The position numbers and the translations under genes are program-made. Below, piece by piece: positions 18,299 to 62,440 of a DNA stretch of 64,000 bases (the first letter of the stretch is position 1; each line of letters begins with the position of its first letter). This DNA is from Hymenochaete sp. R1. Its lineage: Eukaryota; Basidiomycota; Agaricomycetes; Hymenochaetales; Hymenochaetaceae. Location of the stretch: assembly GCA_019400425.1 (NCBI GenBank), contig JAFREE010000077.1:1-64000 (forward strand), given 5' to 3'. The notes under the pieces are model-generated. The model was not told the origin of the DNA. It saw nothing but the letters and a program-made list of their open reading frames with translations, and made no database searches.

Positions 18299-20230
18299 AT
18301 GTCAACTTCCGACTCTCTGTCATTTGACTCTCTCACAGTCCACCCAGACCTAAAAGCCAGAATCCAACATCTCTGTATTCCCGGGGGCGACCTGACTAGA
18401 GGCATCCATCCGAAGTCTCTTAGTACTTTCAGTGACGTGTTTGAGGGAACCCTCAAACGCGAGCACGGGATCGTCAAAGTTGCAGTCAAAAGGTTACGGA
18501 TGAATTTTGATGAACACTCTGCGGTGGGATTGTATATTCAAGAAAGCTTGTTATCCAGTTGCTTATGCTTTCTTCAGGTGTTTGACAAAGAGATTTACGT
18601 ATGGTCCAAGCTGGTGCACCCAAATATATTGACTTTGCTTGGGTATTCTGTTTGTCCTGACACGGGTTATCCAATGCTTATTTCCGAATGGATGGAGAAT
18701 GGCAATGCTCTATTATACGTGCGGAATAAAGAGCTTTCGACTCATCAACTTTTCAATCTGGTACGTCACCAGCCCTGTCATTCTTTTTCGTAGCTGATTT
18801 TTACTGCATAGATTGAAGACGTTGCTGAAGGTCTTACTTATTTGCACGGCAAAAATGTTATTCATTCCGATCTTAAGCCGGTCAATACCTAGTTTTTGTT
18901 TTGAAATTGGCACTTCAAACTTATTCTGTGATCTCAGGAAAATGTTTTGATCACATCTGAAGGACGAGCAATTCTCTGCGATTTCGGTTGTAGCCGCGTC
19001 ACTCTTGCCAGTCTTTCGATCGCTAAACCCACGGATTCTGGGAAAGGAACAATGCAATACATGGCGCCAGAGCTTTTGCAATGGAAGCCGACAGAGCCCC
19101 CAACCTCACAATCCATGGAAGCCGACGTTTGGGCGTTTGGTATGACTGCGTACGTGAGTATTATAACATAATCATAACGAAAAGAGACCCCTGACAGTTG
19201 TTCAAAACGTAATTGCGGTTTGGTAGGCTCTGTTCTTGAAGTCCCCACCGTATGGCAAGGCGAGCGATGTACAGATTCTAATGAATATCAATAAAGGGAT
19301 TCTACCCGAAGTACCTAGCGGGAACCATGATGCGGAGACAAAGCGAATCCATGAGGTTTGTTTGAGGTGCTGGATAAGCGAACCTCAATCTCGCCCCCTT
19401 GCTGAGGAAATTTTACGAGTACTCAAACTTCCGCTATCTGGTGAGCCAAACATACGCATATAGATTAACAGCATCGAAGACCAACTTGTCTTATTTCTCA
19501 CAGAACCACCAGAACATGCTTCTGAATACGAAAACCCCGCAGTGGAGACCCTTACAACTGCCCAACACTTATCGTACGACGACCCTGCAGGTGATTTTCT
19601 ACGTTTGGAATTCGGCACTACCAAATCTTCATTCAAGCGGATACGAGACATTTTTAAGCTAGCGTCCGACAAGTTGTCTGCACCGTGCAAGAATGACAAC
19701 CGGTTTAATTCACCGGTGTACTTCTCTACAGCAACGTTTAGGGGCCTGACCATCCCTGGAAAGGCCGTTGGGTCAAGTGTCTGGCTTCTAGTAGCAAACC
19801 TAAAGCTTCAATGTCACATTACGTGGGAAGGTGTGGTCCACAAATGTAGCGAGTTCTCCGTTCTACGATATGATCGCAATCAGATGGAGCTTGTAAAGAC
19901 AAGCGAGGGCAACATACCGCAAGGTGCGCGTCCAGTTCTAGGAGGCAAGGACCAAAATGGGGCGCCACTGTACCACTCTGTTGCAACGATTGAAATTGGT
20001 GACAGAAGGCTTCGAATCCCTGGTTTTGCAGCAGAGTTTTTGGTGCGTGCTGCTGATGAAAAATGGGTTGCTGTTGATCTTGTATCAAAGGGCGGAGCTT
20101 CCGTACCGTATGGCGAACAGGAGTACAAAGTTGCGACGTCTTATGAAATTCTGTAAGTTTCGTTGCATGCTTCATACACGAACGTCCGAGTTTTTACCCT
20201 TCCATAATTTATAGGTGTTGGAGGACTTGA
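18299..20230 (+). CDS. Kinase-DM9 fusion protein, copy 1
   Basis: Seven exons: 18299-18523, 18578-18760, 18812-18880, 18938-19153, 19227-19440, 19504-20152, 20215-20230; 523 residues. The kinase (about residues 20-300) has VAVK, the C-helix Glu in FDKEIYVWSKL, a catalytic loop IHSDLKPEN (HSD, not HRD), CDFG and MAPE, so the key catalytic residues are present. The C-terminal part (about 350-523) has two DM9-like repeats: VYFSTATFRGLTIPGKA...FSVLRYD, then LYHSVATIEI...RIPGFA...SYEIL. The protein ends LCWRT. DM9 modules are known from arthropod and mollusc proteins, some of them mannose-binding. No signal peptide or membrane helix is seen, so it is probably cytoplasmic. It is the most diverged copy and lies outside the inverted arms. 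Confidence 0.85.
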
Positions 20231-21953
20231 CGAATGCAGGGAGTGTACTCAGTGAACTTCGGTCCTTTCCCTCAGTAAGTCGCCTCATTAACCCCCTTAC
20301 TTCACAATTGGTTTGCTCCCGTAACCTTGTGTAATTATTTCTGTGTCTGAGAGAGTGAAAGAGAGAAAAGGCGAGCACTGTCGAGCACCCAGCCGTGCTT
20401 AGAAGCTTAGTCTCATACATATTGAGCTTTCATTCCTTTTTGACCGCCGACGATCCTTCTTAATGCTACATATTAACAACTACCGACCTTCACAGTGCCC
20501 TCGACCGACCGCCGAAAATATTAAGCACTGACTCAAGTCCCCCCTTCTGGCACCTCCTACTGTATAATTGCTAACCAACTGACGGTCATGAGGACACACG
20601 TATTATAAGGACATACATGCCAGTGCTCAAGTTTCCCTTATCTGCCTCTACGAAAGATGCAGCATTCAATCTGTAAGTGGAAGCTTTTCATATCCACCCA
20701 TAAATCTCTTACCGACATCAACTTCACGCAGCTAAGCTTGATTTGGCTTGAAGGTTTTTACAACGCACTTCACTTAAGCTCGCATTTGGAACGGCAATCT
20801 CATTCTTGGCACAAGCAGCTGACTATGAAGAAATCATTCAATAACCTGAGGAAGTTTCTGCAATTCATCCAGCCAGTGTTCTCTCAAATATTTCATTGGT
20901 GATTATTCTTGGTCCGCCTCATGAACGCGAGAACATTCATTTTGCGGATAGTGCGCCAGCCAACTTGTCACGGCCATAGCTTGGTCCCCGAGCCAGGAGA
21001 TCACACCGGTGGAAATCCCAGGGTACGCGAATAAAATAAACTTATGAATGTCCTTTCGAGTTGGTCATAAGAGCTCTCTGATCTGGATCCTGTTGAACAC
21101 TGATTTGTATTGGGTCAGGCGGTGGACCCGAATCGCAGATTCCAGCTGTAACGCACTGGTACAACATCCATTGACAATGCACTTCCTGCCGCGAGGAAAG
21201 AGAGAAAGGTCAAGAGAGGGTTGAAAAGGGCAAACACTTCGCGTGCAAGGTGTGGGTACTAATTATTTAAGAAAAAATGTCGGCGCCCAGGCTCACTGAC
21301 ACAGCAAATGCGTATTTGATCAGTCCAAAATTCTGGAAAATCTAGGTAGCCTGGATTGAGGCAAATCTGCATAACCATGGCGCCCTCCTGTACCAAAATA
21401 CCTGCCAAAGTATTGCGGCTCAAAGGATATAGAGCCGCGTAGCACGAGGGTCCTTAATCTACTAGTAACCAACCGCACCGCCTATGCATGTCCTGTAAGA
21501 AAAAGTACATCCTATCTATGAAAAGTCTGCTGTGGACATCTCCTTTAGCTATTTTCCTTAGAGCCGTATTCCTTTGCCCATCTTCAAGGTGCGCCCTCGA
21601 GCCGTAAGGATTGCGTATCATATGGCCCGCATATCATAGAAATTTCCCCATAAGCATGTATGCTGTTCAGATTACCAGGATCTTATCTACGGGAACGAAA
21701 CATATCATGAACGCGTTTAACATCTTGTAAAGGAAGCGTATCAACAAACGGCAGGGAAATTCTCAAGACGCCAGCCCGTCGCAGTTCAGGTATAAAAGCG
21801 TGCGATTGAGTTGTTTTTATAAGTATACGATGCATGACATCGATAACAATCGTCCGAAAACCAGGTAATGACAGACATTAAAAAAGGACAACTTCAAGTT
21901 GGAAAAGGAGTTGAAAAAACGATGGATGAGTAAAATGGGAGATTGGTTGTAAA
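20231..21953. other. 1.7 kb without a recognised gene
   Basis: AT-rich, with only short open frames; one of 81 codons at 20657 lacks motifs and splice context. No kinase or DM9 remnant, repeat or RNA gene was recognised. It may hold regulatory sequence or decayed elements. Confidence 0.5.
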
Positions 21954-23701
21954 TCACGAGAAGACCGAAAGACGACCCGGCTCAGTCTTGTTCATCAATA
22001 CGTTAGTCCAGAAATCTGAATCTTCCCAAAGATCGGGGGTCAATTGTATCTGTGCGAGCCTTATACCTTCTTGCTGAAAGATTAGCCTCAACAACCGTTG
22101 CAGACCCAGCACATCCAACCCAAATCGCTCGTATAACTTGAGCGTCTTTAAACTGGCTAATGGCCTCGCCAACTCCTTGGGGAATCCATGAAAGTCATCC
22201 ATAGAAAGCGTAACTGTATCGATGCCATTAAATCGGTCAACGAGATCCGGGATGACGTAAGCAATAACTCCGTGAAGATCATGGGGACCTCCATCATCTG
22301 AGAGCCTTTCATGGCTGAAATCGAATGTAAAATGCCGTAGTTCGCCATAGCTGTGGCTGTCTGGGAGCATCTCCGAGACAACTAAGTGTTCGGGATAGAA
22401 CGGCCCTTTGACGTTCAATACCAATTCGAATGAAACGACCTGGGGCATCTTGAGTAGGCGGGTAACGTTCGCGATGCGGCGGGTAATGTCCGTATTTATA
22501 TCCATGTCCATCTCAGCCAGTTCAGAATCATCATCGTCTCGAAACACTTCGATAGTGATCTTGCAATACGTGAGTCTGGAAAGTTCCACGAAGTTGTCGG
22601 TTAACTTGTTGGTCTGGGAGTCGGAAAAGGGGCTGTCAATCTCGTAACCGAAGTCGAGTTCTTGTAGCGCATGTGCTTTTCTGAGAGTCGTTACGAGCTT
22701 CGACAAGACGGAAGAAGTACGTTTACCCTTGAAAACATTCCTAATGGTCAAAGAGGTCAACTGATCCAATATGGACGCCGGTGTACCACCACCGTCAATC
22801 GCCAAATCTCGTAGATTTGGGAACGTCCAACTTTTGAACACGCTGGATGCATCTTTCTGCGCAGACTCGACGGTCAAGTGCGTAATGGCTGGGAAACGAG
22901 ACCGTTCACTTTTGCCTTCCTCAGGAACAATTGTCTTCGGGAAGTCTAGGCCTGAGGTCTCAAGAGAAAGGTGCGTGCAATGTAACAAATGCTTGACCGT
23001 CATGCCCTGCGTCATCCGGTCGAAACGAATCTGGCACCGACCAAACGAGCTGATTCTTGCTGAACTTTTCGACAAGTCTTCGTTGCAATTGTCCCGACCG
23101 TACACTGTGTACATTTCATGTCTGTATCTAAATCCGATATCGTTCCAAAACGACGGCGTTGTGTACATTAAATCACGAATGCGGCGACTGACAAGACAGA
23201 GTCGCTGTGCTTTTCTCCGCATCAGACCGTAGGTTCGATAACTTCGTTCAGAGAGGCTGGAAGGTTGGCGTACTGATTGCCATTCTGGTCGGCATAGCAT
23301 CAGAATGTTCAGCAGAATTTCATCTGGGAGCTCGGCGAACCCGCGATGATGTGATGCACCAATTACCGCCCTCCCCAGTGAGCTGGTTTTGACATTGAGG
23401 GCAGTTTGTAGAGTCTTCAATGCCTTCGAGGCCGCCTTCAGTCCCTGAAAATTCAGTTTGGCTTGGTGTAGAAGGGCTGGATCAGCGATGAGACTGTCGA
23501 GCTTGGTGAGTACATTCCTTGTCAAAGAACCAATGAACAAGTAGCTCACTTGGAGATATCGTGCCTTTCTCCAGGCCAAACATCGTCTATTGTAACCTCG
23601 CCGTTGGATTTTGACAACCTGTCGCACGCATCCTTGATGAGCTCGAGCGCTAATGAATTTGCAGATACGGTCGATTTTGGTGATACCGATTCAATAAACA
23701 T
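21954..23701 (-). CDS. F-box protein with LRR-like C-terminal region
   Basis: Two exons on the minus strand: 23701-23550 and 23493-21954; 563 residues. The join uses a GTGAGC donor and a GACAG acceptor, which keeps frame and gives DIS-N-LIADPALL. An F-box-like segment follows at about residue 105: FAELPDEILLNILMLCRPEW, then RLCLVSRRIRDLMYTTPSFW. The rest contains irregular hydrophobic repeats typical of the leucine-rich regions of basidiomycete F-box proteins. F-box proteins bind Skp1 and bring substrates to SCF ubiquitin ligases; this family is greatly expanded in Agaricomycetes. Without the intron the frame would also stay open upstream, giving a different basic N-terminus; the spliced version looks more natural. 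Confidence 0.78.
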
Positions 23702-24999: not shown

Positions 25000-26747
25000 A
25001 TGAACGGAGTCAACCCCAACGACATGTTCAAGCAAGCTGGCTTCGGTCAGATTCCTTTCTCAGGCGGCTATCAACCCGATAGGTCACCTCTTTACACCCA
25101 TTATCAAGCCAACCTCCAGGTCGTCATGAACGGTTACATCCCTCCCGAAATGTTCAAGCAGGCTGGCTTGGGCCATATGTTGTCTCCGCATGGCACTTCC
25201 GCTCCCGAGCAGTCTATGGTTCCGCAAGGAGGCGTCAAGCCCGAGCCCAACGCTTACTCGCAGGATCGCTCCGAATTCGCGAAACCCCAGCCGATGGGAT
25301 ATGGCTACCAAGGCCAGCCTGCGCTGAAATCAGAGCCGGCATATGGTCCTAAGGTTGAGCAGCCCTATGGTTCTAGGGCCGAACAGGCATACGCTCCCAG
25401 GGTTGAGCCTAGCTATGCCCCCAACGTCGGTTCTACTTACGCTCCAAAGGCTGAGCAGGTTTACGCTCCTAATGTACAGCCTGGATATGCCGCTCCCAAC
25501 ACACAGTCTAGCTTCGTTCCCAAAGTCGAATCCGCTCCCACCTTTGCCTCTACTGCTACAGGCAACTCCGCATTGAACCAGGCTCCATACTCTCAAGGTA
25601 TCCCTCAATCGATTCAGCCCGAAGTTGAATCCCGCGGCGTACAAGTTCCTACGGAGCGCAACCCAAACGTCTATGCAGAGACGGGTATCTCGGCCGCTCC
25701 AGCTGTTTCCACCAATGTCCCCGCCAGTTATAACACGTTCGAGCAGCCCAGGCAAGAGCAAGCTCCTTATCCCCAAGCTTCTCTTCAGCCCACGCAACAG
25801 ACGGTTCAGGTTTCAGATGCCCCAGTTTCCAGCGTCCCTGCCCAATACACCACTGTGCCCGAAGTTGAGCTCAAGCCCGACTCTGCCTCCACTCTCGTCA
25901 CCCAACCCATTCTCTCCGCCCTTGAGAAGCCTGCATCGGACGCACTGTCCTCTGTAGTTTCTCTTACTACTTCCGCGGCAACCGCTGCGGCTTCAGCTGC
26001 CGGCGCGTCTTCCTTCGTTCCAGGTATCTACTGGCCACTCCCCAACAAGTTCTCCCCAGCTTCCAATGACGCTCGTGCCTTCATCAAGACCCTTACGCGC
26101 GTCGATCCCTCGGGTACATTCCTCCGCACCCAGGTCGGCCCTGGTGAAGGCTTCCGCATTGCGTCTGCGGAGGAGGCGATCCGAGTCGCTCGTGCGAAGG
26201 ATGATGGCGAGTTCGGCGAGCCACCTTGCTCTGAAGAGGACCCATCTGTGCCCGTCTACTTCACGACGGCTTCATTCAACGGCTCTCTCATTCCCGGTAA
26301 AGGAACCACCTGGTGCGACCCAATGTGCCTCGTCTCATGGGGTGGAGGCGAGCATATGTGCCAGTCGTATTCCGTACTGAGGTTCGACAAGGAGTTGATG
26401 GAGCTTGTTCCAGCAAGGGGCGGCGAGATCCCAGCAGGGAAGCGCCCTGTCGTTGGTGGCTACGAGGACGAGAAGAATAGGACTGGCGAGCTTTACCACG
26501 CTGTGGGCGTAGTGGATGGTAACGTCCGTGTCCCGGGCAAGGCCGCGAAGCATTTGGTATGTCTTCTCTCATTGTTTACGATAGACTGTGGCTGACTTCG
26601 TCTCTAGGGTGGAGCTGCTGTTCCTTACAGGAAGGAGGAAATTCGTATCTACGGGTCATACGAGCTTCTGTATGTCGCTTTACCTCCTGTATTCGCAAAC
26701 ATTATTCTGATTCGATTCGCCTTCTCTTTAGCTGCTGGAAGGACTGA
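25000..26747 (+). CDS. Stand-alone DM9 protein with repetitive N-terminus, left arm
   Basis: Three exons: 25000-26556, 26608-26669, 26732-26747; 544 residues. The N-terminus has two copies of an MNG-x-(N/P)-x-(D/E)MFKQAG(F/L)G unit (from residues 1 and 44). Degenerate octapeptides with Tyr, Pro, Val-Glu-Gln follow (YGPKVEQP, YAPRVEPS, YAPKAEQV). A Pro/Gln/Ser-rich linker leads to the DM9 region (about residue 340 on): TFLRTQVGPGEGFRIAS, DGEFGEPPC, VYFTTASFNGSLIPGKG, SYSVLRFDKELMELVPA, RRP-type VVGGYEDE, LYHAVGVVDGNVRVPGKA and SYELLCWKD. There is no kinase and no signal peptide. Low-complexity aromatic N-termini can drive assembly; that is inference. Confidence 0.85.
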
Positions 26748-27297: not shown

Positions 27298-28165
27298 ATG
27301 CGCTTTATTTCGCACTCCGGTTCTGAGTCCGATAATACTCTTCTTGCTGAGGTGCCGTCTTCACTGTCCTTAGATTCTGAGAGAAAATTAACGATTTATG
27401 TCAACGATGACGACTTCGACTCCGGAGTTTGCTAGAGCATCAGGCATCTGTATCTCCAGCAGACGAGTCTCATCAAATGCCCAAACGAGTCAAACGACAC
27501 AAGCTCGGATGCGTCTGGCGGCACCTTCAAAGGGGCTCTGGTCCAAGTCAACGAAGAAGGAAGTCAGAGAATGTCCAGCGTAACTATCAGGAGGCTAAGA
27601 GCAATCTTCGAAGACTGTCATCACGTAGTCTCTCTCTTTTTTCGCTCTATAAGATTACTTCGTGTTCAGTTACAACTAGGTCTTGTTGCCTAGGCTCTCG
27701 AAAAAGAAATCCGCGTTTGGTCAAAGCTGGAACATCCCAATATTCTACCATTACTGGGATTTTTCGTTTGTCCAGATACGAGGCGCCCTATGCTCAGGCT
27801 GGTATTCAAAAATTTCAAATGGATGGAAAATGGTAATGTCTTGTCCTATGTGACTAAGAACAACTTACCGCCCGAAAAAGTCATGGAACTGGTACGCGGG
27901 GAACAATCTGTTATTTTCCTTTCCATATCTCAATTCTCCTTTAGGTCAATGATATTGCCAGCGGTCCCACCTACTTACATGAAAGGGACGTCACTCATTC
28001 TGATGTCAAACCTGTACGGCCTCATTGTCTTGCTGCTCTTGAAGAACTGATTCTGATCTTCCACGGCAGGACAACGTCATGGTCACAGGCTCGGAGAGAG
28101 CTGTCATTGAAAACTTTATATACGCCTCGACCATGAGAAGCCAGTACAGCTTCCTGTAACTCGGA
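27298..28165 (+). pseudogene. Truncated kinase fragment of the kinase-DM9 family
   Basis: The sequence aligns codon by codon with the start of the 34-kb and 54-kb copies (both begin M-R/H-F/I-x-SHS). An in-frame TAG at 27433-27435 replaces a TCG serine codon just before IRHLYLQ. Downstream the kinase continues: LEKEIRVWSKLEHPNILPLL, a short insertion that replaces the VYEW part before MENGNVLSYV, the catalytic loop THSDVKPDN, then MVTGSERAVIENF where DFG should be. Homology is lost near 28165; no activation loop, C-lobe or DM9 part follows. The copy is dead both by its stop and by truncation. The alpha/beta-hydrolase pseudogene follows, the same order as the copy at 54.7-49.9 kb. Confidence 0.85.
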
Positions 28166-30559: not shown

Positions 30560-31107
30560 ATAGGTCTAGTAGCTACTTTCACTGATGCTCGTGCCTTCCC
30601 CAAGGTACTTGCGCAGAATGAAGGTTTCGGCACTTTTCTTCGCTTTCGATTGACCCTGGTGAGGGCTTCCATTCCTGATAAATAGTACCACTCAGAGCGA
30701 CGCGGTGTGCCTCGTCTCGTGGGGTTGTGAGGAGCGCCTGTGTCAGTCCATTTCCGTATTGCAATAGAACTCGTCTTGATAAGAGGCGGTGAAGTGGTGG
30801 CCAGATGGCAATTACGGAGACAAGAAGAACAAGTATGATGAATACCTCAATATACTGTTGAAGTACTGTATGGTAATATATGAGCTGCGGGCGAAGCAGC
30901 TAAACATCTGGTACGCATTCATATTTCTCTTTGGCGTATCGTGACTTGTGCCTTATCATAATATCTATAGGGTGGCCCACTGCTCTGTTCAGCAAGGAAG
31001 AACACTGTTATTACAGATTATACGAATACCTGTATGTTGCTCTTCATATACGAGGCTGTGTGACCGCTGTCTCCGGCGTTTGTTTAATTCAGCCGCTGGA
31101 AGATTAA
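30560..31107 (+). pseudogene. Decayed DM9 gene remnant
   Basis: Scattered matches to the stand-alone DM9 gene in the right order: ACTGATGCTCGTGCCTTC (D-A-R-A-F), CGGCACTTTTCTTCGC (GTFLR), CCTGGTGAGGGCTTCC (PGEGF), a stretch like the LVSWGGGEHMCQS codons at about 30700, the KAAKHL region near 30900, and the terminal exons ending GCTGGAAGATTAA. Many stops and indels interrupt it. No kinase part is visible before it. It is a relic, and it shows that the left arm once held one more DM9 unit right after the hydrolase copy. Confidence 0.75.
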
Positions 31108-31497: not shown

Positions 31498-33750
31498 ATG
31501 TCAGTTCCGCCAGCACAGAGCGACTTGCCTCCGGTGCACGCTCCCTCTCCTACCACCGCACGCAAGAATTGGTTCAGCAACATATTGGCTACGAAAGTAT
31601 TTCGCGGTTGGAGCAGGACTTTCTCATTATCACATGGCAAGGGTAGCAAGAAGGATCTACCTCTCGTTGTGGTCGAGGGCTCCGGTTCCCCCACGCCTGT
31701 AGCGAAAGTCGTTGCCGCCGATGATAATACTGAACGTAGTGAGGATCACGATCTTGGCGACCTCAAGAAGACGGATATAGCCTTAGGACTGCAGCGCCGT
31801 GAGAATATCAGAGGGATACATGTGACCGAACCAACTCGCGATGCATTGGACTCGTTGGTTGACGCTGGCTTCAATGCTGAAGTGCTATCGCGCGTCAAGC
31901 ATCTCTTTCTCCCCAAAGACATTATAAATAGGCGTGGGGGAGTCTTAGGAAATGGAACCTATGGTGATGTCTTCAGAGGAGTAATTGCCACTGGTGAGGG
32001 TGAACGTGAGGTAGCCATAAAGGTGGTACGGATATCTCCAGCGAACTTACCCCTTGTGAGTAGCAGCTCATAAAATCTTATGTTTAAAAGCTTTCATACT
32101 GAATAAATCGACCAGAGCTTCGTCAAAGAGGTTTACATCTGGTCGAAACTAAGCCATCCCAACGTTTTACCTTTGCTAGGAATCTCCTTCGTTGCGGACA
32201 CCTTGTATCCTATGTTTGTGTCAGAATATATGGAGAATGGCAATGCTCTATCCTATGTGATTAATAGGGCGTTACCACCTGAAAAGGTTTTAAAAATGGT
32301 GAGGGTGACAACAATTCTGACTCTTCCTCGACTTAGTTTTCTCCTAGGTCAGTGGTATCGCGAACGGCCTTGCGTACATGCATGGAAATAATATCATTCA
32401 TTTGGATATCAAACCTGTGAGACTTTGCATCATTTGTCGTAATCTTATAAGCCGTTTCAAGGGTTTGATCTTTCTAACTTAGGAAAACATACTCGTTACG
32501 CAAGCTGGAAATGCAGTCATTTCTGACTTTGGACTCAGCCGTGCGATGCTTGCCAGTTGCTCGATTGCAAAACCTACAACAACGGCCCGCGGAACGATTC
32601 AGTATATGGCACCAGAACTTTTGAAGTTTGATGATGAAGATGTTTCTGCCACACAGTCAATGCAATCCAAAGAAGTCGATATTTGGGCCTTTGGTATGAC
32701 CATTATTGTCAGTTGCCTGGTGCTTGTGTGTTGTATATCGTTGCATACTGATTGGGCGTTTAGGCTCTTCTCCGTAAAGATCATCCCTTCGGGACCCGAG
32801 ATCACTTAGCTGTCAACAGGATTTTGAATCGGGACTTACCTGGCCTTCCGAAGTCAATGCAGCCACCCGACTCGAACACTTCAGTACATCTCCTTTGGTG
32901 TATCTGTCAGACATGTTGGGTGGAAGATCCACCGTATCGTTCCCAGCTGGAGCTGGTGTCTAGGGTGATTGAAGAATATCTTATTTCGGGGTCAATTACA
33001 GCAACCATGAAATATTTCATTCTTCCAAACATCTTCCCGATGCTTCCATACAAGCTCTTCCCAAAGTCCAATAACATGCTTGCCTTTCTCAAAGCTCTCT
33101 CCCGCAAAGATCCTTTCGGTACCTTCCTCCGAACTCAGATCGGCCCAGGAGAAGGCTTCCGCATTACGGCAGACGCCCTCAGAATCGCGTTTGCGAAGAA
33201 CGATGGCGAGTTCGGCGAGCCGCCTGGCTTTGAGAAGGAGCGGGGATCGCCCAAAGATGTTTATTTTACGTCTGCCTCGTACAAGGGCTCCCTCATACCG
33301 GGCAAGGAAATCGATTTTAGGTCCCCGGCGTGCTACATTCCGTGGAATGAAACAGAAATTACTTGCCAATCTTACTCCATACTGAGGTTTGATAGAGAGT
33401 TGATGGAGCTAGTTCCGGCGAGTGGTGGCGAAGTTCCGGCAGGTAGACGTCCGGTTGTGGGCGGCTATGAGGATGAGGAGGAAAAGACCGGTGAGCTGTA
33501 TCACGCTGTCGGTGTGGTGGGCAAGCGCGACCGCGTTACGGGAAAGGCTGCAAAACATCTGGTTAGGATTCTTCCATTGCTTTCGATGACAGTACTATTG
33601 ACTTCACCTTCAGGGTGCAGCTAGGGTGACCTACTACTCTTTAACAGGGATTCGCATCTCCGACTCGTATGAGCTTCTGTGAGCCCTTTTCCCATTTTGC
33701 TTGCTGACAATCATTTTTCTGACTCTGTCTTTAGCTGCTGGAAAGACTGA
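31498..33750 (+). CDS. Kinase-DM9 fusion protein, copy 3
   Basis: Seven exons: 31498-32055, 32116-32298, 32348-32416, 32483-32707, 32764-33561, 33614-33678, 33735-33750; 637 residues, the longest copy. It has an extra N-terminus of about 120 residues rich in Ser, Lys and Pro. Then the kinase: GNGTYGDVF (glycine loop), VAIK, FVKEVYIWSKL, catalytic loop IHLDIKPEN (HLD), SDFGLSR and MAPE; all key residues are present except the HRD arginine. The DM9 region begins at GTFLRTQIGPGEGFRI and includes FGEPPG, VYFTSASYKGSLIPGKE, SYSILRFDRELMELVPA, LYHAVGVV and the end SYELLCWKD. No targeting signal is visible. Exon 4, intron 4 and the start of exon 5 are almost identical to copy 5. Confidence 0.88.
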
Positions 33751-34237: not shown

Positions 34238-36249
34238 ATGCGCATCGCATCGCATTCTGACTTGGGGTCCGACTGCACTTTACCTGCAGAGACGCCCCCT
34301 TCTGCCCCTTCTGAGCCTAAAAGCAGATTTTCGCTTCCTTCTAACAGTAATGACCTTGGCGCCGGAGTTTGGTCGACTATCAAGCATTGCTATCTCCAAG
34401 AAACGAGCCTGGCAATTTTACCAGATATCATAACTTCGGATGCTTTCAGCGACAGCTTCAAAGGTTCCTTCGTCCAGTTTGATAAAGCAGGATGCCGGAG
34501 AGAGTCTGATGTAGCCATCACGAGGTTACGAGTGACCTTGGAAGAATGTCATCACGTACGTGAATCTTTTATTTAAAAAGACGTGATACCCGTATTTAAG
34601 TAGATCTTGTTGCTTAGGTTTTCGAGAATGAAATCGATGCTTGGTCGAAGCTCGGACATCCCAATGTTTTACCATTATTGGGATTTGCCGTATGTCAAGA
34701 TACAAAGTGCCTTATGCTCGTGTACGAATGGATGGAAAACGGGGATGTACTGTCCTACGTGAGCGAGAAAAACCCGCCACCCGGGAAGCTCATGGATCTG
34801 GTAAGATATGAAATAGTCATTCTATTCATTCTGCGTCTCAACCTTCTTTTAGGTGGAAAATATTGTCGATGGGCTTGCTTACTTGCATGAAAACGGTGTC
34901 ACTCATTCTGATCTCAAACCGGTGTGCCCTCATAACCTTCACCTTCCCTCCACGCATTGATCTGTTATGCCAGGACAATATCATGATCACGGATTCTGGA
35001 AAAGCTGTCATTGAAAAGTTCGATTTAAGCCGGATAGCTCTTGCTTGCTCGATCGGACAATCGACGACAAAATTGCACGGAACAATCCAGTACAAGGCTC
35101 CTGAGCTTTTGAAATTCAATCCCGAAGTCGGATTGGTTCTACATTCCCAAGAAGCCGACATTTGGGCTCTTGGTATGACCATTGCTGTCAGTTGGAGTTG
35201 CTTGCATGATGATTTTGCGCCACTCTGTACTGAAGATTAGCCAGGCAATTCTTCGGAAAGATCAACCTTTTGGTCGCAATTGCGATACTGCATCGATATT
35301 ACAACGGATTCTGGATCGGGACTTACCTAGCCTTCCGGAATCAATGATTCAGCCAGAAGAAAATGTGATCACCAGTCGTCTGTGGGCAATCTGCCATTTG
35401 TGTTGGATACAGAGCCCACTTCACCGACCAAGGTCAAACAAGGTGTCGATGATGATTAGTCAATATCGTGCTTCGAGTTCAATCATAAGCGCCATGAGTT
35501 ACTTCATCCTTCCAGGAGCGTACCGGACGTTTTCGTACAAGCTCTTACCAAGGCCCGATGACACCTTCGCCTTCCTTCATTTGAAGGCCCTCACATACAT
35601 TGATCCATTCGGCACCTTCCTCCGAACTCAGGTTGGCCCGGGAGAAGGCTTCCGCATTACGGCAGACGCCCTCAGAATCGCGTTTGCAAAGAAAGATAGT
35701 GAATTTGGCGAACCGCCTGGCTTGGAGAAAGATGATGGTCCGCCCAAAGACGTTTATTTCACATCCGCTTCATACAATGGTTCTCTTACACCTGGCAAGG
35801 GAATCGACTTTAACACTCCGACGTGCCAAATTCCATGGGATGGGTCAGAAATTATCTGCCAATCGTACTCCATTCTGAGGTTTGATAGAGAGTTGATGGA
35901 GCTCGTTCCGGCGAGTGGTGGCAGTGGGTAGGCGCCCGATCGTAGGAGGCTACAGCGACGGGAAAAACCGGACCGGTGTGCTTTACCATGCTGTGGGCGT
36001 AGTTAATAGTAGCGCTCGTGTCCCGGGCAAGGCTGCGAAGCATCTAGTATTTTATTTTGTCTTGCTGCTCTTAATGAAGCTGTTGTTGACTTCCATTTCA
36101 GGGTGGAGCTGTGTTACCGTACTACGGGAAAGGGATTCGTAAAAGTGACTCGTACGAGCTTCTGTGCGTCCCCACTATTCCTTTGCTAGTAAACAATAGT
36201 TTTGCTAATAAGACTACCCTGACTTGTGTTTAGCTGTTGGAAGGACTGA
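34238..36249 (+). pseudogene. Kinase-DM9 copy 4, degenerate kinase and frameshifted DM9
   Basis: Exons 34238-34555, 34618-34800, 34853-34921, 34974-35186, 35245-36046, 36102-36163, 36234-36249 fit the family pattern. Three defects are seen. The beta-3 lysine is lost (VAIT instead of VAIK). DFG is replaced by KFD (IEKFDLSR). Compared with copy 3, 8 nt are missing after the SGG codons near 35922, giving a TAG at 35929-35931; exon 5 is 802 nt, which becomes a multiple of three only with 8 nt restored. Beyond that point the DM9 frame is open to the usual end. A shortened kinase-like protein lacking most of DM9 repeat 2 could still be made. The kinase half resembles copies 2 and 6, the DM9 half copy 3. 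Confidence 0.82.
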
Positions 36250-37112: not shown

Positions 37113-39114
37113 ATGTCTTCGGACTCATCCACCAGTCGCAAGAACGACTCTTCTCCAGCGCAATCTGTAGCAAGTGATGATTACTTGGACTCGCTACTCG
37201 AGGCCGGCTTCAACCCCAAATTACTTCCTCGCATCAAACATCTCATTCTCCGACACGACGGTCTCCGAATACGTGGGGGTGCCTTGGCATGTGGCATGTA
37301 TGGAGATGTTTTCAGAGGAGTCATGGACAAGAATGAGGACGGTCGCGAAACGTCGGAAACGATTGGTGTAGCCATAAAGAAGCTGCGGATACCCCTGAAG
37401 GACTGTCTCCATGTGAGTAACAACCCGAAAACGCCGTTGCATATAAGTTTCCGTACTTAATGTGCTGGCCAGAATTTCGACAAAGAGGTTTATGTCTGGT
37501 CGAAACTCATTAATCATCCCAATATCCTACCTTTACTGGGAATTTCCTTCCCCTCGGATACGTTCTATCCTATGTTCGTGTCCGAATGGATGGAAAATGG
37601 CAACGTCCTGAGTTTTGTAAAGACAAATGCCTTTCCACCTGAAAGAGTCGTAGAATTGGTGAAAGTTGTCGGTCACCCGGATCCTTCCCCGACTCATCAT
37701 GCTCTCTTTTAGGTCAATGATATTGCTAGCGGCCTTGCTTATATGCATGAAAGGGACATCATCCATTTAGACATCAAACCGGTGAGGTTTCGCACCACTC
37801 GCTGATACCCTTGTTACTGGCTTAATCTCATTACATTAGGAAAACATACTCGTTACGCAAGCTGGAAATGCAGTAATTTCTGACTTTGGACTCAGCCGTG
37901 CGATGCTTGCCAGTTGCTCGATTGCAAAACCTACAACAACGGCCCGCGGAACGATTCAGTATATGGCACCAGAACTTTTGAAGTTTGACGATGAAGAAGT
38001 TTCCGCCACACAGTCCATGCAATCCAAAGAAGTCGATATTTGGGCCTTTGGTATGACCATTATTGTTAGTTGCCTGGTGCTTGTGTGTTGTATATATCGT
38101 TGCGTACTGATTGGACACTTAGGCTCTTCTCCGTAAAGATCATCCCTTCGGGACCCGAGATCACTTAGCTGTCAACAGGATTTTGAATCGGGACTTACCT
38201 GGCCTTCCGAAGTCAATGCAGCTACCCGAAGCGAACACTTCAGTGCATCTCCTTTGGTGTATCTGTCAGACATGTTGGGTGGAAGATCCACTGCACCGTC
38301 CGCAGCTAACCCACGTGTCTATGTTGATGAGAGAATATCTTGCTTCAAGATCAATCACAGGCGCAATGAAATCTTTCTTCCTCCCAGGCGTCTATCGATC
38401 GTTTCCATACAAGCTCTTCCCAAAGTCCAATGACACTCTGGCCTTTCTCAAGGCTCTCTCACATATTGATCCGTTCGGCACTTTTCTCCGCACTCAGATT
38501 GGCTATGGAGAGGGTTTACACATCTTGTCTGGTGAGGAAGCACTCAGTACTGCTCGTGCAAAGGAAGACGGCGAGTTCGGTAATCCACCTTGCACTGAAA
38601 TAGACCCGAACGAGGCTGTGTACTTTACATCGGCCTCGTTCGACGGCGCGCTTGTTCCCGGAAAAGGTTCGACCCGGGATAGATTGTGGTGCCAAATTTC
38701 AAACGACGGAGAGGAACACATGTGCCAAACTTTCTCCGTATTACGATTTGAGAGAGACCTGATGGTGCTTGTCCCTGCGAGGGGTGGAGAGATCCCGGCT
38801 GGAAGGCGCCCGGTTGTGGGAGGGTACGAGGATGAGGAGAATAAGACTGGTGAACTGTATCACGCAGTGGGTGTAATGAAGGGGTACAACATCCGTGTTC
38901 CTGGCAAGGCGGCAAAACATTTGGTTAGCGGTTTTTTCTCGTTATTTCCAACGAAGCCAGCCTCAACGTCATATAACACAGCGTGGGGTTTTGTTTCCCT
39001 TTGAGTGGAAAGAGCATTGTGTCAATGACGCATACGAGCTTCTGTGAGTTTTGTCAGTTGCACTTAAATGATGATACTACTGAGTCGCTCTTCTTTAGCT
39101 GCTGGAAGGATTAA
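37113..39114 (+). CDS. Kinase-DM9 fusion protein, copy 5
   Basis: Seven exons: 37113-37412, 37473-37658, 37713-37781, 37840-38064, 38123-38923, 38982-39043, 39099-39114; 552 residues. Kinase: ACGMYGDVF in the glycine loop (first Gly replaced by Ala-Cys), VAIK, FDKEVYVWSKL, IHLDIKPEN (HLD), SDFGLSR, MAPE; probably catalytic. The DM9 part is of the type found in the stand-alone proteins: GEEALSTARAKEDGEFG, PPCTEIDPNEAVYFTSASF, GALVPGKG, RRPVVGGYEDEENKTGELYH and SFRVPGKA-like VRVPGKAAKHL. It ends AYELLCWKD. The penultimate exon (RGVLFPFEWKEHC) differs from copies 3 and 4 and resembles copy 6. The N-terminus is short, with none of the extra residues of copy 3. Confidence 0.87.
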
Positions 39115-49885: not shown

Positions 49886-51839
49886 CTAAATGTAGGAGTG
49901 CGAGCAGAAGGTATCAATGAAGTCAGCCACATCGTGCCAGTATCCTCGTTGTACGCATGTATCGTCTACAGAATGAATCAATGAAGCTTTTCTAACGCAG
50001 TGCAGACCGATTACTCACTATGCGAGCCTTCCCGATACTCGACCAACTTGCCTGGTCTCCTTCCTCTCGACCGACCGGACATTTTCGCTTCCCTAAATAG
50101 TCTCTCCAACTCATGCATATGCGCCTGGGGAACGATCTCGTCTTTACGTCCGCTTAGCATCAGTACAGGTGTTGTCGCAGGGATGAGGTGTACTTTCGAG
50201 GCCGAGTCCCATTTTTGGTGACAAAGAAAGGCAACGCGCGATAACATGGGCATCGCGGTAGGGATAAGTCGAGGGATGGAGAGGAATGTGTTTTCGAGGA
50301 TAAGGGCATGGATCTGACAAATAAATAAGGGTCAGTCTGTGAATAGAAAGTCGACAGAACTTCACGCTCGAGAGTCTGAGAACGACTGGCTCAAGAAGAT
50401 GAAATCGACTCGAAACGTACTTTTGTAGGGTTTTTACTCGCAAGGTCGATTGACACAGCGCCGCCTATTGATTGTCCAAAAAGAACCTGGATGAAAAACT
50501 TGTTTGTATGCAGATGTAATAGACTGAGATCCAGAACGTACGATGCGTGTTTGAGAAAGGCTAGGGTGTGAGGTGATATAGTTTAGTGATGTTTGAGCAT
50601 CCAACTGAATTCCTTCTGAGGAGTAAGAACAACGTAGATACCTATAACTTATAAGAGCTTACCCTTCTCAGATGGAGACCCTTCTGATAAACCATACCTT
50701 GCGAGAGTACATGAGTCTATATGCGAAAAAGAAAGGCTAACGGTCTATCACTCACCCTCGATATGATAGCATAAAGACATTGCACCTCATCTCCATGAAG
50801 AACATCTTCGCCAGAGGTATACGATGACCTTCTCGAATAAATAAGTTTAAAATAATACATGGATGAGCACTGTCTATTTACCAGCATTACCCCCGTTCCC
50901 ATGAAACATCATGACTGTCGGCCTCGTCGCGGCATACTTCATTTACAAATATAAGAGAGCTTTATTAATAGCGCATTCCTATCTGAAACAGGCGTGTGCC
51001 ACGCACCTCATCATCCGACATCCTACTCCCGCCATGCTCTGAGTGCACGACTTCCCCGTTCTCCCCAACGGCCAGTTCCTTCCGTTGCACGAGTAAGAAC
51101 GCACGCACTTTGACGTGGTCGGGCGTGTCGAGGATAAGTTCTTCGTATGGGAGCCCAAAGTCAGACGGGACAGAGACGTCTGTTGACAACGACAAATTCG
51201 ATGAACAAGAGACTCGAAAACAATGAAGGATGAACAACACACCTGTTCTTGATCCGGGAGGGAAAGCAGAAGGGTAGATCAGGTAGTTCTGGCCGTAGTA
51301 GAGCAGTCCAAGACCTTGCGAGAACATGACGACCCGCGTGCCAACCGACCGAATTTGATTCCGAATAAACAATTGACGAAAAGAAGCCGATAAGATAGAA
51401 AAAGAATAAGGAATGTCGTCAGCGGCGTTGCCCACAAGCTTGTCGACGGGGATGGTGGTTAGAGGGAAAGGGTCGGATGTAAAGACTCACTGAGGGTTGA
51501 GAATCCGACGGCTGAAGCGAATGTGCCCTAGAAGGGTAGGGATAAGAGGTGTCGTTAAGTTATCGGCGGGTCATGGACAGGCTCGCAACACAATCTAGAA
51601 GCGCTGCGCAACCCGCTCGGAGGCGGCGACGGGCATGCCGTCTTAACAATTTCACGGCGGCGAGCCCGATATGTGAATGAACGGGCCTCATCGACGTCAA
51701 AACATCTGAATTTGAGTGAAAGACATGACCGAAAGGAGTAGACCGAGCACGGAGTGTGGCGGCGATGGCGGTTGCCTAAATGAATGGATGAAATACTCAC
51801 CTTTGCTACGGACTGCAGGCTAGGTAGGTAGCCCGACAT
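49886..51839 (-). CDS. Alpha/beta-hydrolase of the BEM46/ABHD13 family
   Basis: A gene of about ten exons; the first four are 51839-51801, 51527-51491, 51314-51243 and from 51179. A short N-terminal hydrophobic region (FASAVGFSTLSLGLLYY) is a likely membrane anchor. Family motifs follow in order: NYLIYPSAFPPGSR, DFGLPYEELILDTPD, MFHGNGGNAGHRIPLAKMFF, MRCNVFMLSYRGYGLSEGSP, the nucleophile elbow GQSIGG, the acid strand MLSGRKDEIVPQAHM, and EGSHRYWHDVADF with the catalytic His. BEM46 proteins are membrane-associated hydrolases linked to polarity and growth in fungi; the substrate is unknown. The gene has an inactive inverted copy at 28737-30427. The second intron as drawn is long (176 nt) and may hide another exon. 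Confidence 0.88.
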
Positions 51840-52646: not shown

Positions 52647-54724
52647 TCAGGCCTTCCAGCAGCTGAAGAAAAAGCAACTTAATATGACGATCATTGCGAA
52701 ATGCGTATGAGTAGAACTCACAGGATCTCGTACGCGTCGGAGATGCGATACTCCTTCCACCCCCAGACGAACGAAGCTCCGCGCTTAAGATGCAGTCAAT
52801 AACAATTTCACAAAAAAAAACACCAAGAAAAAACATACCAAATGCTTGGCCGTCTTGCCAGGGACTCGAATATTGGGACCGTTCACAAATCCCACGGCGT
52901 GATACAACTCACCCGTCTTATTCTCCTCGTCTTCGTACCCACCTACAACGGGGCGCCGGCCAGTCGGAACTTCACCATCCTTCGTAAGAACGAGCTCCAT
53001 CAAGTCCCTATCAAATCGCAACACGGTGTAAGATTGGCATGCCTGTTCCTTCCCGTCGTAAGGGATATGACACGCCATCGCCACCAGAAGGCTCCAGGTA
53101 AACCCCTTTCCGGGTACTAGAGAGCCGTTGAACGAGCCCGACGTGAAGTACACAGGGTTGCTTGGGTTTGAATCGCTGCATGGCGGCTCGCCGAACTCAC
53201 CACTACCTTTTAAATTTGCGATTTCGAGCACTTCCTCGGCTGAAGTGATGCGGAATCCTTTCCCTGGACCGACTGGGGTGCGGAGGAAGGAGCCGGAGGG
53301 GTCGCTGTGTGTGAGTTTTTTGATGAACGAACGAACGCCAATGGAGCTCTCCCCCTTGAGCATAGATGAGAGAAGGCCAAATCCCATTCCGCGCCCAGCC
53401 TGCCGCACAGAGGTTTCGAAATAGGGAGAAAGGAGTTGTTCGATGAAAAAATTGTTCAGATCATCAAAGAAAGGACTGCGAAGGAAGTGCAATATATCGT
53501 TTATATTCGGACGGCGCACTGGATCTTGTATCCAACACAACTGGCAGAGTCTCCAAAGACGATCGATCACAACGTCCTTTTCAGGTTGCTTCATTGAGTC
53601 CGGAAGGTCAGGTAAGTCCCGGCTTAAGATTTTCTGTATTGTCAATGCAGCATCGCACATGTAGCCAAAAGGCTGATCTTTCCGGAGAAGAGCCTGCCCG
53701 TCCTTTCAGAACGGAACGATATCTATATTCAAAAGAAAGGCTCCAACTCACAACGACTGTCATACCTAAGGCCCAAATGTCGGCTTCCTGGGACTGTATG
53801 ACTAAACCAACTTCGGGATTGAATTGCAGAAGCTCAGGTGCCATGTACTGAATCGATCCATGGAGCGTTGTCGGAAACCGTCCGGTCAAGCAGCTGGCGA
53901 TGAATATCCGGCTGACATTGAAGTTTCCAATGGCAGCTCGTCCAGACTCCGTGACTACAATATTGTCCTGAGGCAGTAGGTTAGTATTAAACTCAAAGAC
54001 AAACGCCGAAGCAAACTTATGAGGCCTTACCGGGTTGATATCGGAATGAGTAATATTGTTTTCATGTAGGTAAGCGAGACCACTTGCAATATCGTCAACC
54101 TAGAGGAAAGTTAAGACGCATAATCAAGGGAATGACTGCTTATATCATACCAATTCCAATACTGTTCTAAGCGGTAAATTATTCTCTCTCACGTAGGAAG
54201 ACACATTGCCGTTTTCCATGCATTCGTACACGAGCATGGGGTACTTTGTATCTTGACATACGGCAAATCCCAATAACGGCAAAACATTGGGATGTTCAAG
54301 CTTTGACCAGACATCGACTTCTTTCTCAAAAACCTAAGCAACAAGATTCACTCTTGAACAAGTATCAATTTTTTCATAGAAATCATCCACGTACGTGATG
54401 ACATTCTTCCAAGGTCACCTGCAGCCTCGCAATAGTAACGTCGGTCACCGTCTGACCTTTCCCTTCGTCGTGCTGAACAAGGGTCCCTCTGAAGACTTCA
54501 CCGAAACTTGAAGCATCCGAGCTTATGGCGCTTGGGCGTATTGTTAGACTTGTCTCTTGGAGATAGAGATGCCTAATGCTCAAGCAAACTCCGGCATCGA
54601 GGTCGTCATCGCTAGAAGTGAACACACATTTGCTGTTGGGCTCTAAGGATGGAGAAGGTGGCATTTCGACGGAAAGTGTTCTGTCGGACTCAGACGCGGA
54701 GTCAGAGTGCGAGGCGAAGTGCAT
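52647..54724 (-). CDS. Pseudokinase-DM9 fusion protein, copy 6
   Basis: Seven exons on the minus strand: 54724-54395, 54333-54151, 54099-54031, 53967-53752, 53693-52839, 52783-52722, 52662-52647; 576 residues with an open frame throughout. The kinase fold is kept (FEKEVDVWSKLEHPN, MAPELL, DIWALGM), but catalytic residues are lost: VTIA for VAIK, THSDINPDN with Asn for the catalytic-loop Lys, and NFN for DFG (AIGNFNVSR). It should be catalytically dead yet could bind partners. The DM9 region is intact: FLRTPVGPGKGFRITSAEE, GEFGEPPCSDSNPSNPVYF, SGSFNGSLVPGKG, SYTVLRFDRDLMEL, RRPVVGGYEDEENKTGELYH and AYEILCWKA. Its N-terminal half is closest to copies 2 and 4. Transcription runs toward the hydrolase gene. 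Confidence 0.87.
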
Positions 54725-55533: not shown

Positions 55534-57500
55534 TTAATCCCGCCAGCATCTATAGACAAATAAATCAAATACAAGCATATGGTCATCGACGAAACAACTC
55601 ACAGTATCTCGTATGAGTCATTGGCACGATGTTCAAATAGTTTGTAGGCATATAAAATACCTCCCTGAAATATGATTAGTGTTTATCATTTTGACGAAAG
55701 AAGCGCACATACTAAATGTTCTGCAGTCATCCCTGGTACGCGGACTAGGACTCCCCTATCATCGTGCGTAGTGACAGCGTGATATAATGTCTTTCCACGC
55801 TCATTCCTGCCGCCAGAGACGGGTCTCCTCCCTGATGGCACGTAGCCTCCACTCGCCGGGACAAGCTCCATAAGGCTTGGATTGAACTTCAGGACCGAGT
55901 ATGAGTGACACGCGTGCTCATACCCATCCAGCGAGACGCGACACGGATCTTCCATCAAAGGCATGGCTTTACCCGGCAACAGGAGGTTATGCACCTTGCC
56001 GGAAGCAAAGTAAACTCGGGTTGAATCATTCGATTTGTGCAGCTCGCCTCTATCGGGAAGTATATCGAGTCCTTGACTGGGGTGGACATTGACGCGGAGG
56101 AAGGTCCCAAATGGATCGCTGCGAGCAGCGGCTTTCAAAGCCGGTAGGGTTCCGATAGGCAGCATAGACGTGAAAAGGCCGTTCGCCATCCCAAAATCAG
56201 CGGGTTGAGTTGAGGCCTCGTGAAAGAGAGAGAAGAGTCGTTCAATGAAGGAAACATTGGTATCGTCGAAGAAAGGTTTACAAAGGGAGCACAGCACCGA
56301 GTCCATCTGTGGACGGGCTGACGGCTTTTCTGCCCAACACTGTTGGCAAATACTCCATAAGCGATTGACTATGGGATTCGCCTCGAGCGTTCGCATTGAA
56401 TTTGGAAGAACAGGTAACTGTCGGTTTACAATCCTGTTCCATGCCATGGGATCACAGATCTTATTTCCGAAAGGATGTTCTTGTTGTAGAAGTGCCTGGG
56501 TAATATATGTTTAGGACGGAGCTACAGTTTACGTTTCAAATAGTGAAAGCTATCACTCACAACGATTGTCATTCCAAGTGCCCAGACATCAGCAGCCTTT
56601 GACTGCGGGAGAGGGTCATTACCAGGATTATATTTGACAAGTTCAGGTGCCATGTACTGGGCTGTGCCATGGACGACGTCTGCGGTGGGTCTACCTATTG
56701 CACAACTGCCAAGAACAATTCGACTAAAACCAAAATCTCCAATGACAGCCCTTCCTGAGTTTGTGACCATGATATTGTCCTAATATAGTAAATTAGGATG
56801 CAGTCTGAAGAGAAAGAGAACAGTCCACGTCTTACCGGTTTGATGTCTGAATGGGTGACGCCTTCGCTATGCAGGTATGCAAGGCCATGGGCAATATCGT
56901 CCACCTTGGAGATATGTGAGGCTTGGCTCCTGAAACGTGTGAATAGTTGTTTCACGACTTACCAGGTCCATGACTTGTGCGGGAGAAGATTTATTTTTTC
57001 TCACGTATGATAAAGCATTGCCATTTTCCATCCATTCGGACACGAGCACAGGATATTTGGTCTCCGGACAAAAGGAAAATCCCCCAAATGGTAAGATGTT
57101 AGGATGGCAAAGCTTGGACCACACGTATATTTCCTTTTCAAATGCCTAGTCACAAAATTTAGTAAGTAGGATTTCATATAAGGTCCTGTACAAAGCTGCG
57201 GCTTACATGATGGCATTCCTTTAGGATTAATCGGAGCACTTTTATAGCTACATCAGCATCCGTAGGGGGCTCCGGATCGCTGTGGATAACGAGGGACCCT
57301 TTAAATATATCGCCGCAGGCGCCAAAACTTTTGGCTCCTTGATACTTTCGGAGAAGATTTGGTGGGAGGTAGAGATGCTTGATGCTCAATAGCACATCGA
57401 CATCGATGTCAGCACCAACAAAAGACTCCAAGCTCTCATCAGAGAGATTGGTAGAGGAAGCAAGCGGGAGACTGAACTCGGAGGACGAGGCTGAAGACAT
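55534..57500 (-). CDS. Kinase-DM9 fusion protein, copy 7
   Basis: Seven exons on the minus strand: 57500-57207, 57145-56963, 56904-56836, 56779-56561, 56495-55713, 55664-55603, 55549-55534; 541 residues. The kinase residues are complete: SFGACGDIF in the glycine loop, VAIKVLRL, FEKEIYVWSKLCHPN, THSDIKPDN (HSD), GDFGFSR and MAPE. The DM9 part is more diverged: TFLRVNVHPSQGLDILPD, VYFASGKVHNLLLPGKA, CHSYSVLKFNPSLMELVPA, RRPVSGGRNERGKTLYHAV, VRVPGMTAEHL and SYEILCWRD. It lacks the FGEPP block of the others. Exon phases equal those of the remaining copies. Probably an active, cytoplasmic kinase; no signal or membrane segment is visible. Confidence 0.87.
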
Positions 57501-58164
57501 GTCGGTAGACGGAAGGGCGTGTCGCTAGGTAGTGATGAATACTGTCACTGCAAGGTTGATGTATCACTTTATATGCCAGATAAGAAAGAGAAAGAAAAAT
57601 ACTTGCTCAGCGCTTGGGACAATGAATCAAACCAACTCCACGAACATGCCTCAGATCCGAATGTTCTTCTTCAGTTGGTTAATATCATCTCGGTTGTAGG
57701 ACCGGATTGAGTCGTAACAAAAGGACGTTGAAGGTGTGTGCAAAAGAGAACGGAAGACGATAGGGCGCTTTCGTCAGATTATCCAACTAAGAACGGTAAT
57801 GAGGTAACTATATTTGGTGGATCCCGACGCGCATTCAATTTTTGATAAATTGGAAGGCGAAGTTACCGATGGTCAGCTGAAGCGTTGTCGGAGCGACATT
57901 CCGATCTATGAGCTTGACATTGCGGAAACACTATCGGTCTTTCTTTGAAGTACAAAGTTTCGTGTACCCAAAATCCGAGAGACGACGGCGCTTGAGGTCC
58001 TTGAGGACACAATGTGTTCACGTTGTCAGCCATGGCCCGCAAAACAGTTCGTTCTTCAATGCAATAGATCGTTAAATTTAGAATAGTACACATGCACAGT
58101 GCCCTGGAAACGAAAAGGAAACCGCAGATAACGACTGGTACAGGAGCCGCCCATCTTTGAAGGA
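57501..58164. other. Intergenic between copy 7 and right-arm DM9 gene
   Basis: Promoter of copy 7 and 3' flank of the next gene. No gene recognised; the open frames here are short and lack motifs. Confidence 0.5.
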
Positions 58165-59222
58165 TTAATCTTTCCAGCAGCTAGTGCAAATGCGAGTGAG
58201 CAAACGATCCCATGATCAAGGATACGGTCAACGTACAGGAGTTCGTACGACCCATAGATACGGATTTCCTCACCACTGAATGGAACTGCGGCACCACCCT
58301 GTATATCCAATGATCAGTCTTCAGTCATATCATAGAAAGGAAAAAGAGAAGCGTAAACGCGTACCAGATGTTTCGCTGCCTTGCCCGGGACACGAATATT
58401 GCCATTCACCACGCCAACAGCATGGTGAAGTTCGCCGGTCTTGTTCTTCTCATCTTCATAGCCCCCGAGAACGGGGCGTCTCCCAACTGGCACTTCACCA
58501 CCCCTCGTAGAAATAAGCTCCATCAAGTCCCTATCAAATCGCAATACGGAATAAGATTCACATGGGCGCTCCTCTCCACCGTACGAGATATGGCACATCG
58601 GGTCGCAAAAGACAGTTGCCTTGCCCGGAACGAGAGAGCCGTTGTATGAAGCTGTTGTGAAGTATACGGGTACATTTGGGTCTTCTTCAGTGCAAGGTGG
58701 CTCGCCGAACTCGCCATCGCTCTTAGCATGAGCGAACTTGAGCGCCTGTTCGCTGGAGGTAATGCGGAAACCTTCACCTGAGCCGACCTGGATGCGAAGG
58801 AACGTGCCAGACGGATCAACACGAGTCAACGCCTTGAGGAGAGAGTGAGAATCAGTGGAAGCAGCGATGGTTTTGACCGGAAGTGGCCAATACACATTCG
58901 GGACGGAGGGGACCATGCCACTGGGAACGACGGACTTGAGAGAATCTTCGGCGTTCTTGGAAATAGCGGAGAAGCCTGGGGGAATGGGGAAAGTCGATCC
59001 ATTCTCGGATCTGAGCGAGGGGTTCGCCATGATCTGTGGTTGCGCTGGAGGTTGATAGCCATAGTTCTGGGCGCCTGACTTGATAGGTTGGAATCCACCT
59101 TGCGAAAATGGCACTTGTTGTGGCTGGAGACCCGTTTGTGAGATAAGGTTCATGTCAGGCCGGAAACCACCCTGAGAAAAGGGAGCGGGTCTGAGTACTT
59201 CGGTAGGAACGTAGCCGTTCAT
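58165..59222 (-). CDS. Stand-alone DM9 protein, right arm
   Basis: Three exons on the minus strand: 59222-58365, 58298-58237, 58180-58165; 311 residues. The start MNGYVPTEVLRPAPFSQGGF resembles the second repeat of the left-arm protein (MNGYIPPEMFKQAG), and PFSQGGF(R/Q)P occurs twice. The Gln/Pro-rich N-terminus is shorter than in the left-arm gene. The linker YWPLPVKTI matches YWPLPNKFS there. DM9 blocks: TFLRIQVGSGEGFRITS, DGEFGEPPCTEEDPNVPVYF, TASYNGSLVPGKA, SYSVLRFDRDLMEL, RRPVLGGYEDEKNKTGELHH, NIRVPGKAAKHL and SYELLCWKD. No kinase and no signal peptide. It marks the outer end of the right arm and mirrors the gene at 25.0 kb. Confidence 0.87.

Positions 59223-60416: not shown

Positions 60417-62440
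<2,024 letters not shown>

Follow-up and report, generated by a model that had tools for sequence, protein, structure and literature searches.

What are the genes on this 64,000-nucleotide stretch of the Hymenochaete sp. R1 genome (the window) that join a protein kinase to a pair of DM9 repeats? Spliced models of the window contained six kinase-DM9 fusion genes (K1 to K6) and two stand-alone DM9 genes (S1 and S2), the set that the first-pass annotation had listed. On balance, we lean towards reading the fusion proteins as soluble, likely cytosolic kinases with an exchangeable C-terminal DM9 arm of CGL1-like fold, which would serve recognition or targeting. The models were built by hand choice and with a custom splice search that had been tuned on this window, and are based on sequence, not on transcripts. 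Their introns were GT-AG and 48 to 73 bases long, giving a fungal-like gene structure. The window is contig C312 of a 27.8-Mb assembly in 336 contigs, which the genome searches cover.

Fusion genes and the identity of their two halves

In K2 to K6, the final piece of the kinase, downstream of the fourth intron, shares a single open exon with the DM9 pair, so that the fusion needs no splice assumption. In K1, a 63-nucleotide intron separates the two parts, and 16 in-frame residues (predicted local distance difference test score below 50) stand where the paralogues carry an intron. The K1 intron would fit kinase and DM9 exons that are separate neighbouring genes. This artefact was ruled out for K2 to K6 by the open frames, and an annotated fusion in Phellinidium pouzarii also argues against it; we consider it extremely improbable, and the first-pass placing of both parts on one gene stands for K2 to K6. 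The four kinase introns lay at the same places, all in phase 0, in six of six kinase models. An intron after A(K/E)HL (phase 0) was shared by K4, K5, K6, S1, and S2, and the last intron (phase 2) by K4, K5, S1, and S2; in K1, K2, and K3 the models stop short of the DM9 introns or read through them. Intron positions, proposed to be the same in all loci, thus agree in the kinase parts and, in the DM9 parts, where modelled.

Both profile and predicted fold confirmed the DM9 identity of the C-terminal region. PF11901 passed its curated Pfam cut-off in seven of the eight window genes: five of the six kinases (K1, K2, K4, K5, and K6), S1, and S2. E values were 2e-11 to 5e-15 across the five kinases and S2, and 3.8e-12 for the S1 open reading frame. 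K3 reached 23.3 bits in hmmscan, below the cut-off of 26.2, owing to its broken frame, and was listed at 26.2 bits in the genome search; the match continues in another frame beyond 35931. The paired repeats described earlier are thus present in the cluster, except that K3 breaks in repeat 2. The predicted structure of one DM9 part showed the two-repeat CGL1 (N-type) fold and matched oyster CGL1, with 18-20% identity over the structural alignment. The second strong structural match was MFP2, a motility protein. A C-terminal YE(L/I)LCWK(D/A) motif was conserved in K4, K5, S1, S2, and the P. pouzarii protein, its coding being split by an intron in the window genes.

Searching the genome with PF11901 yielded 10 matches, namely the eight window genes, one on C304, and one on C294; the last two had no kinase match nearby among the matches listed. 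In the C304 gene (L009, C304:335988-336317), a 44-residue piece near the start weakly matched CBM_5_12 (22.1 bits against a cut-off of 26.2), making it possibly a candidate chitin-binding DM9 protein. The C294 gene (L010, C294:117268-117755) has a low-complexity upstream part. No confirmed DM9 relative appeared among 25 viral_contigs and 23 genome_contigs stretches found with one or two short patterns, and a viral or prokaryotic source of DM9 was unsupported by these scans.

Pfam detected a kinase domain in six of six models (best E 1.4e-32 to 2.9e-43, the better of PF00069 and PF07714). The VA(I/V)K lysine, the HxD aspartate, and the DFG aspartate were all present in K1, K2, K4, and K6. K3 and K5, sisters in the kinase tree (support 100/99), lack both the VAIK lysine and the DFG aspartate, and the kinase motifs first reported are to that extent not general. 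Judged by these motifs, four copies look catalytically competent (the glycine loop of K1 is poor), and K3 and K5 look pseudokinase-like. As anticipated in the first-pass annotation, a hydropathy scan revealed no membrane segment in the kinase models (the highest 19-residue mean, 1.67, lay inside the K2 kinase core), and no signal peptide was seen at the N-termini by eye, suggesting that the kinase-DM9 proteins are probably cytosolic.

A word-filtered protein database search of limited sensitivity matched only P0001 to P0004. P. pouzarii EW145_g6607 (P0002) is an annotated fusion, kinase then DM9, that ends in YELLCWKD as in the cluster; its DM9 part is 46% identical to that of K4, whereas its kinase falls outside the K2-K6 clade, and no function is named. 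No fungal DM9 kinase was found in the literature searched, at the level of titles, abstracts, and passages. The earlier statement that no such fungal system is described therefore holds for that literature, but the architecture was already in the sequence record as EW145_g6607. A Joint Genome Institute (JGI) metagenome protein (P0001) was 98% identical to K3 over 226 residues, with its frame open where K3 breaks, and a second one grouped with K2 in the DM9 tree. For each, the longest contig on record has 5846 bases and is probably the same one, indicating that the array exists elsewhere. Arachnomyces P0003 contains DM9, no other Pfam domain, and no kinase.

A single origin of all DM9-kinases was rejected in the kinase tree, which set K1 and P0002 apart from K2-K6 (approximately unbiased test, p 0.041; a weak result with long branches). 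This tree held 33 rows, from 36 domains of which 34 were non-identical and one overlapping row was dropped by hand. The DM9 tree was undecided on this point (p 0.151).

Exchange of halves between neighbouring copies

The two halves of K2 have different nearest relatives. Its kinase was 76% identical to that of K4 and 47% to that of K3, whereas its DM9 part was 82% identical to that of K3 (109 codons compared) and 64% to that of K4. The trees were opposed in the same way: K2 joined K4 in the kinase tree (support 100/99) and K3 in the DM9 tree (96/99 with eight rows, 90/88 with six). Constraining K2 with K3 in the kinase tree was rejected (p 2e-116), as was K2 with K4 in the DM9 tree (p 0.001 with eight rows, 0.019 with six); K3 with K5 was likewise rejected in the DM9 tree (p 0.003 and 0.005). 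At the DNA level, K2 and K4 were 93-100% identical along one tract, intron included, with flanking windows at about 60-80%, and the affinity switched between approximately residues 421 and 490 of K2. The DNA tract, the opposed trees, and the rejected constraints make a well-supported case, at the level of sequence, for recombination between paralogues near the kinase-DM9 junction, by which neighbours appear to have swapped kinase and DM9 halves.

The ratio of nonsynonymous to synonymous substitution rates (dN/dS) was 0.07-0.35 in DM9 (measurable in 14 of 28 pairs, counting those with stand-alone genes) and 0.14-0.33 in the kinase (9 of 15 pairs); the remaining pairs were saturated in dS, several measurable pairs had dS above 1.5, and none of the measurable pairs includes K1. 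Both halves are under purifying selection where this could be measured, which favours a functional role and speaks against a simple arms race; a fast-evolving DM9 was unsupported.

The six loci are not the full count, since a decayed seventh copy had been overlooked; about 2.4 kilobases (kb) of other sequence separate its kinase and DM9 remnants. Along with K3 and the pseudokinase-like copies, it points to birth and death of copies. A lineage-specific tandem expansion of little function, with copies born, converted, and lost, would account for these features (the broken K3, two pseudokinase-like copies, the seventh copy) and for the K2/K4 gene conversion. It sits poorly with purifying selection in both parts, with the open K3 counterpart in the metagenome, and with the same architecture in P. 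pouzarii, and we regard it as improbable.

An inverted repeat of about 920 bases lies at 28858-29777 and 50750-51671 of the window (91-94% complementary, 21 kb apart). Its left copy overlaps hydrolase-like reading frames that split the seventh copy. By eye, we take these frames to be BEM46-like.

A larger kinase family with other C-terminal modules

At least about 53 other loci in the assembly carry the same N-lobe exon at 40% identity or more, counted from 54 rows picked by eye out of 139 matches (C286 may be another kinase kind). Among those counted, 19 lie on C302, 11 on C26, and 5 each on C124 and C81. C-terminal modules were sought in 20 stretches, where 13 open reading frames had a kinase C-lobe end by motif and all 13 were scanned. 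Four ran without an intron into a module: TPR twice (C81), FYRN-FYRC (C106), and Mcp5-type PH (C26). In spliced models, two further sister kinases ended in a Ras-type GTPase and a two-component receiver (L011:1416-3607 and L013, minus). By these domain assignments, a large family of fungal TKL-type (FslK-like) kinases in this genome carries several kinds of C-terminal module, DM9 among them, a relation that goes beyond the claims of the first-pass annotation, as does the exchange of modules.

Some Agaricomycetes, among them Fomitiporia mediterranea and Laccaria bicolor, have expanded sets of such kinases, according to passages of PMC3937382 and PMC2838846. FslK kinases are described in the former as fungi-specific, close to tyrosine kinases, and expanded in Agaricomycetes. 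The likeness here lies in the PF07714-type profile and a large, clustered expansion; fused C-terminal domains are not mentioned for FslK in the passages of PMC3937382 consulted.

Two more features were seen near the cluster. A 577-residue open reading frame on the minus strand (21954-23690), between K1 and S1, had a sub-threshold F-box-like match (19.9 of 24.3 bits). At 60636-61232, on the plus strand, a further kinase exon match of a different type showed stops between its pieces and no DM9 match.

Table 1. Kinase-DM9 genes, related remnants and tracts in the window, and sister kinases elsewhere in the assembly
Feature	Position	Strand	Remarks
K1, kinase-DM9 fusion	18299..20156	+	Motifs VAVK, HSDLKPEN, DFG intact; PGF for PGK in repeat 2
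S1, stand-alone DM9 pair	25000..26747	+	Long Pro/Gln-rich (by eye) N-terminal part; no kinase match
Seventh-copy remnant, kinase N-lobe up to DFG position	27298..28120	+	Broken
Seventh-copy DM9 scraps	30580..30932	+	Stops inside; DM9 match 30681-30791, E 7.4e-4
K2, kinase-DM9 fusion	31498..~33750	+	Intact motifs; read to 33561, final exons by analogy
K2 tract near-identical to K4	32498..32915	+	Gene conversion or recombination
K2 DM9 repeat 1, exchanged module	33091..33440	+	Nearest K3, whereas K2 kinase nearest K4
K3, kinase-DM9	34238..36050	+	VAIT, KFD (pseudokinase-like); frame stops at 35931 within repeat 2
K4, kinase-DM9 fusion	37113..39114	+	Intact motifs; Lys/Glu pairs kept in both repeats
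K5, kinase-DM9 fusion	52647..54724	-	Frame open; VTIA, HSDINP, NFN: pseudokinase-like
K6, kinase-DM9 fusion	55599..57500	-	Kinase motifs intact; PGM for PGK in repeat 2
S2, stand-alone DM9 pair	58165..59222	-	Pro/Gln-rich (by eye) N-terminal part; no kinase match
Module-bearing sister kinases	L016:8320-9999, L017:4430-6013, L024:6296-7486, L014:6334-6963		Intron-free C-lobe into TPR, FYRN-FYRC or Mcp5-type PH

Recognition, targeting, and known systems

The repeated joining of kinases to DM9 and the swapped halves suggest a modular set of internal sensor kinases. The DM9 arm would be the recognition or targeting end of the kinase; on meeting its ligand, whether glycan, glycoprotein, or protein surface, it would gather kinases or bring them to a place, and the kinase would relay the signal onward. 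The pseudokinase-like K3 and K5 may act as partners or brakes, and the stand-alone S1 and S2 as adaptors or decoys.

In a narrower version, a lectin kinase, the DM9 pair would bind mannose-type glycans and the kinase would report glycans that reach the cytosol from a damaged vacuole or endoplasmic reticulum, or from taken-up microbial or fungal wall material. We rate this as possible though doubtful. The CGL1 fold of the predicted DM9 part favours it. High-mannose glycans, as is generally known, are not expected in the cytosol, and this and the MFP2 fold match call for caution with a glycan-binding reading.

The putative sugar site bears on this choice. Passages of PMC4932603 give the mannose contacts of the oyster lectin as Asp22, Lys43, and Glu59 (site A) and Lys114 and Glu130 (site B), plus main-chain and stacking contacts; in those of PMC5712788, D22A and K43A abolished mannose binding and H52A had a limited effect. 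Contact residues were read by eye on the profile alignment and models. In repeat 1, none of the eight window genes lacks the Lys, and seven have the Glu, K1 alone having V there. For repeat 2, the Lys stands in K2, K4, K5, S1, S2, and P0002, with F replacing it in K1 and M in K6; the Glu stands in K1, K4, K5, K6, S1, S2, and P0002, K2 having G there if its splicing follows that of the other copies. The repeat 2 contacts of K3 were unreadable in frame. At the place of Asp22, the profile alignment showed an acidic residue there or adjacent in readable copies, except in K6 (N). The correspondence of fungal to oyster repeats is ambiguous, as the profile alignment crosses halves and the structural ranges run in order. 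The sugar-site chemistry thus appears mostly, but not uniformly, kept. The contacts kept in most copies support a lectin kinase, whereas the substitutions in K1, K2, and K6, the unreadable K3, and the ambiguous correspondence tell against it.

Alternatively, as in nematode sperm MFP2, the DM9 pair may be a module for protein binding or cytoskeletal targeting that merely steers the kinase to its substrate. MFP2 has a role in MSP polymerisation. The oyster Lys/Glu contacts kept in most copies would speak against such a module, which we think possible but unlikely.

Several points weigh against recognition or targeting kinases as a whole. The DM9 model was of middling quality, with one of five models good, and its fold is also that of a motility protein. 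Many recognition domains evolve fast, but DM9 evolves no faster than the kinase. With a broken K3 and a decayed seventh copy, part of the cluster is degenerating. Nine of the 13 C-lobe reading frames had no Pfam module, and the PH, FYR, and receiver modules of sister kinases are not all sensors. Finally, the DM9-kinases were not monophyletic in the kinase tree, so that a function common to all is uncertain.

Known systems resemble the cluster in part. CGL1 (CgDM9CP-1) of the Pacific oyster (PDB 5ID8, 5IDB, 5MH2, 5MH3; PF11901) shares the DM9 pair fold but is, according to PMC5712788, a DM9 pair alone, whereas in the cluster DM9 is the C-terminal arm of a kinase. The nematode sperm motility protein MFP2 (PDB 2BJR, 2BJQ) shares the fold and has no kinase domain. 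Two parallels are by working. Wheat Sr43, as portrayed in PMC10260397, is an active kinase joined to added domains by gene fusion; it is a plant gene, and its added domains are of unknown function. Fungal NLR repertoires, in passages of PMC12881547, comprise modular intracellular receptors, some with TPR repeats; the six kinase models had no nucleotide-binding domain by Pfam, and here the kinase is the core.

A far-reaching and rather unlikely extension would give mushroom-type fungi a combinatorial set of sensor kinases inside the cell, in which DM9, TPR, PH, FYRN-FYRC, Ras-type GTPase, and receiver modules would be fused to one expanded core and swapped by recombination between neighbours, with pseudokinase and stand-alone partners, as a kinase-based counterpart of NLRs. 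As a case of domain shuffling, the cluster is a natural experiment: one DM9 type recurs on kinases that form no single group in the tree. Fungal intracellular sensing of microbes and damage is largely open beyond NLR-like proteins, and a kinase joined to an animal recognition fold in an exchangeable series provides concrete genes for expression and ligand tests and for deletion.

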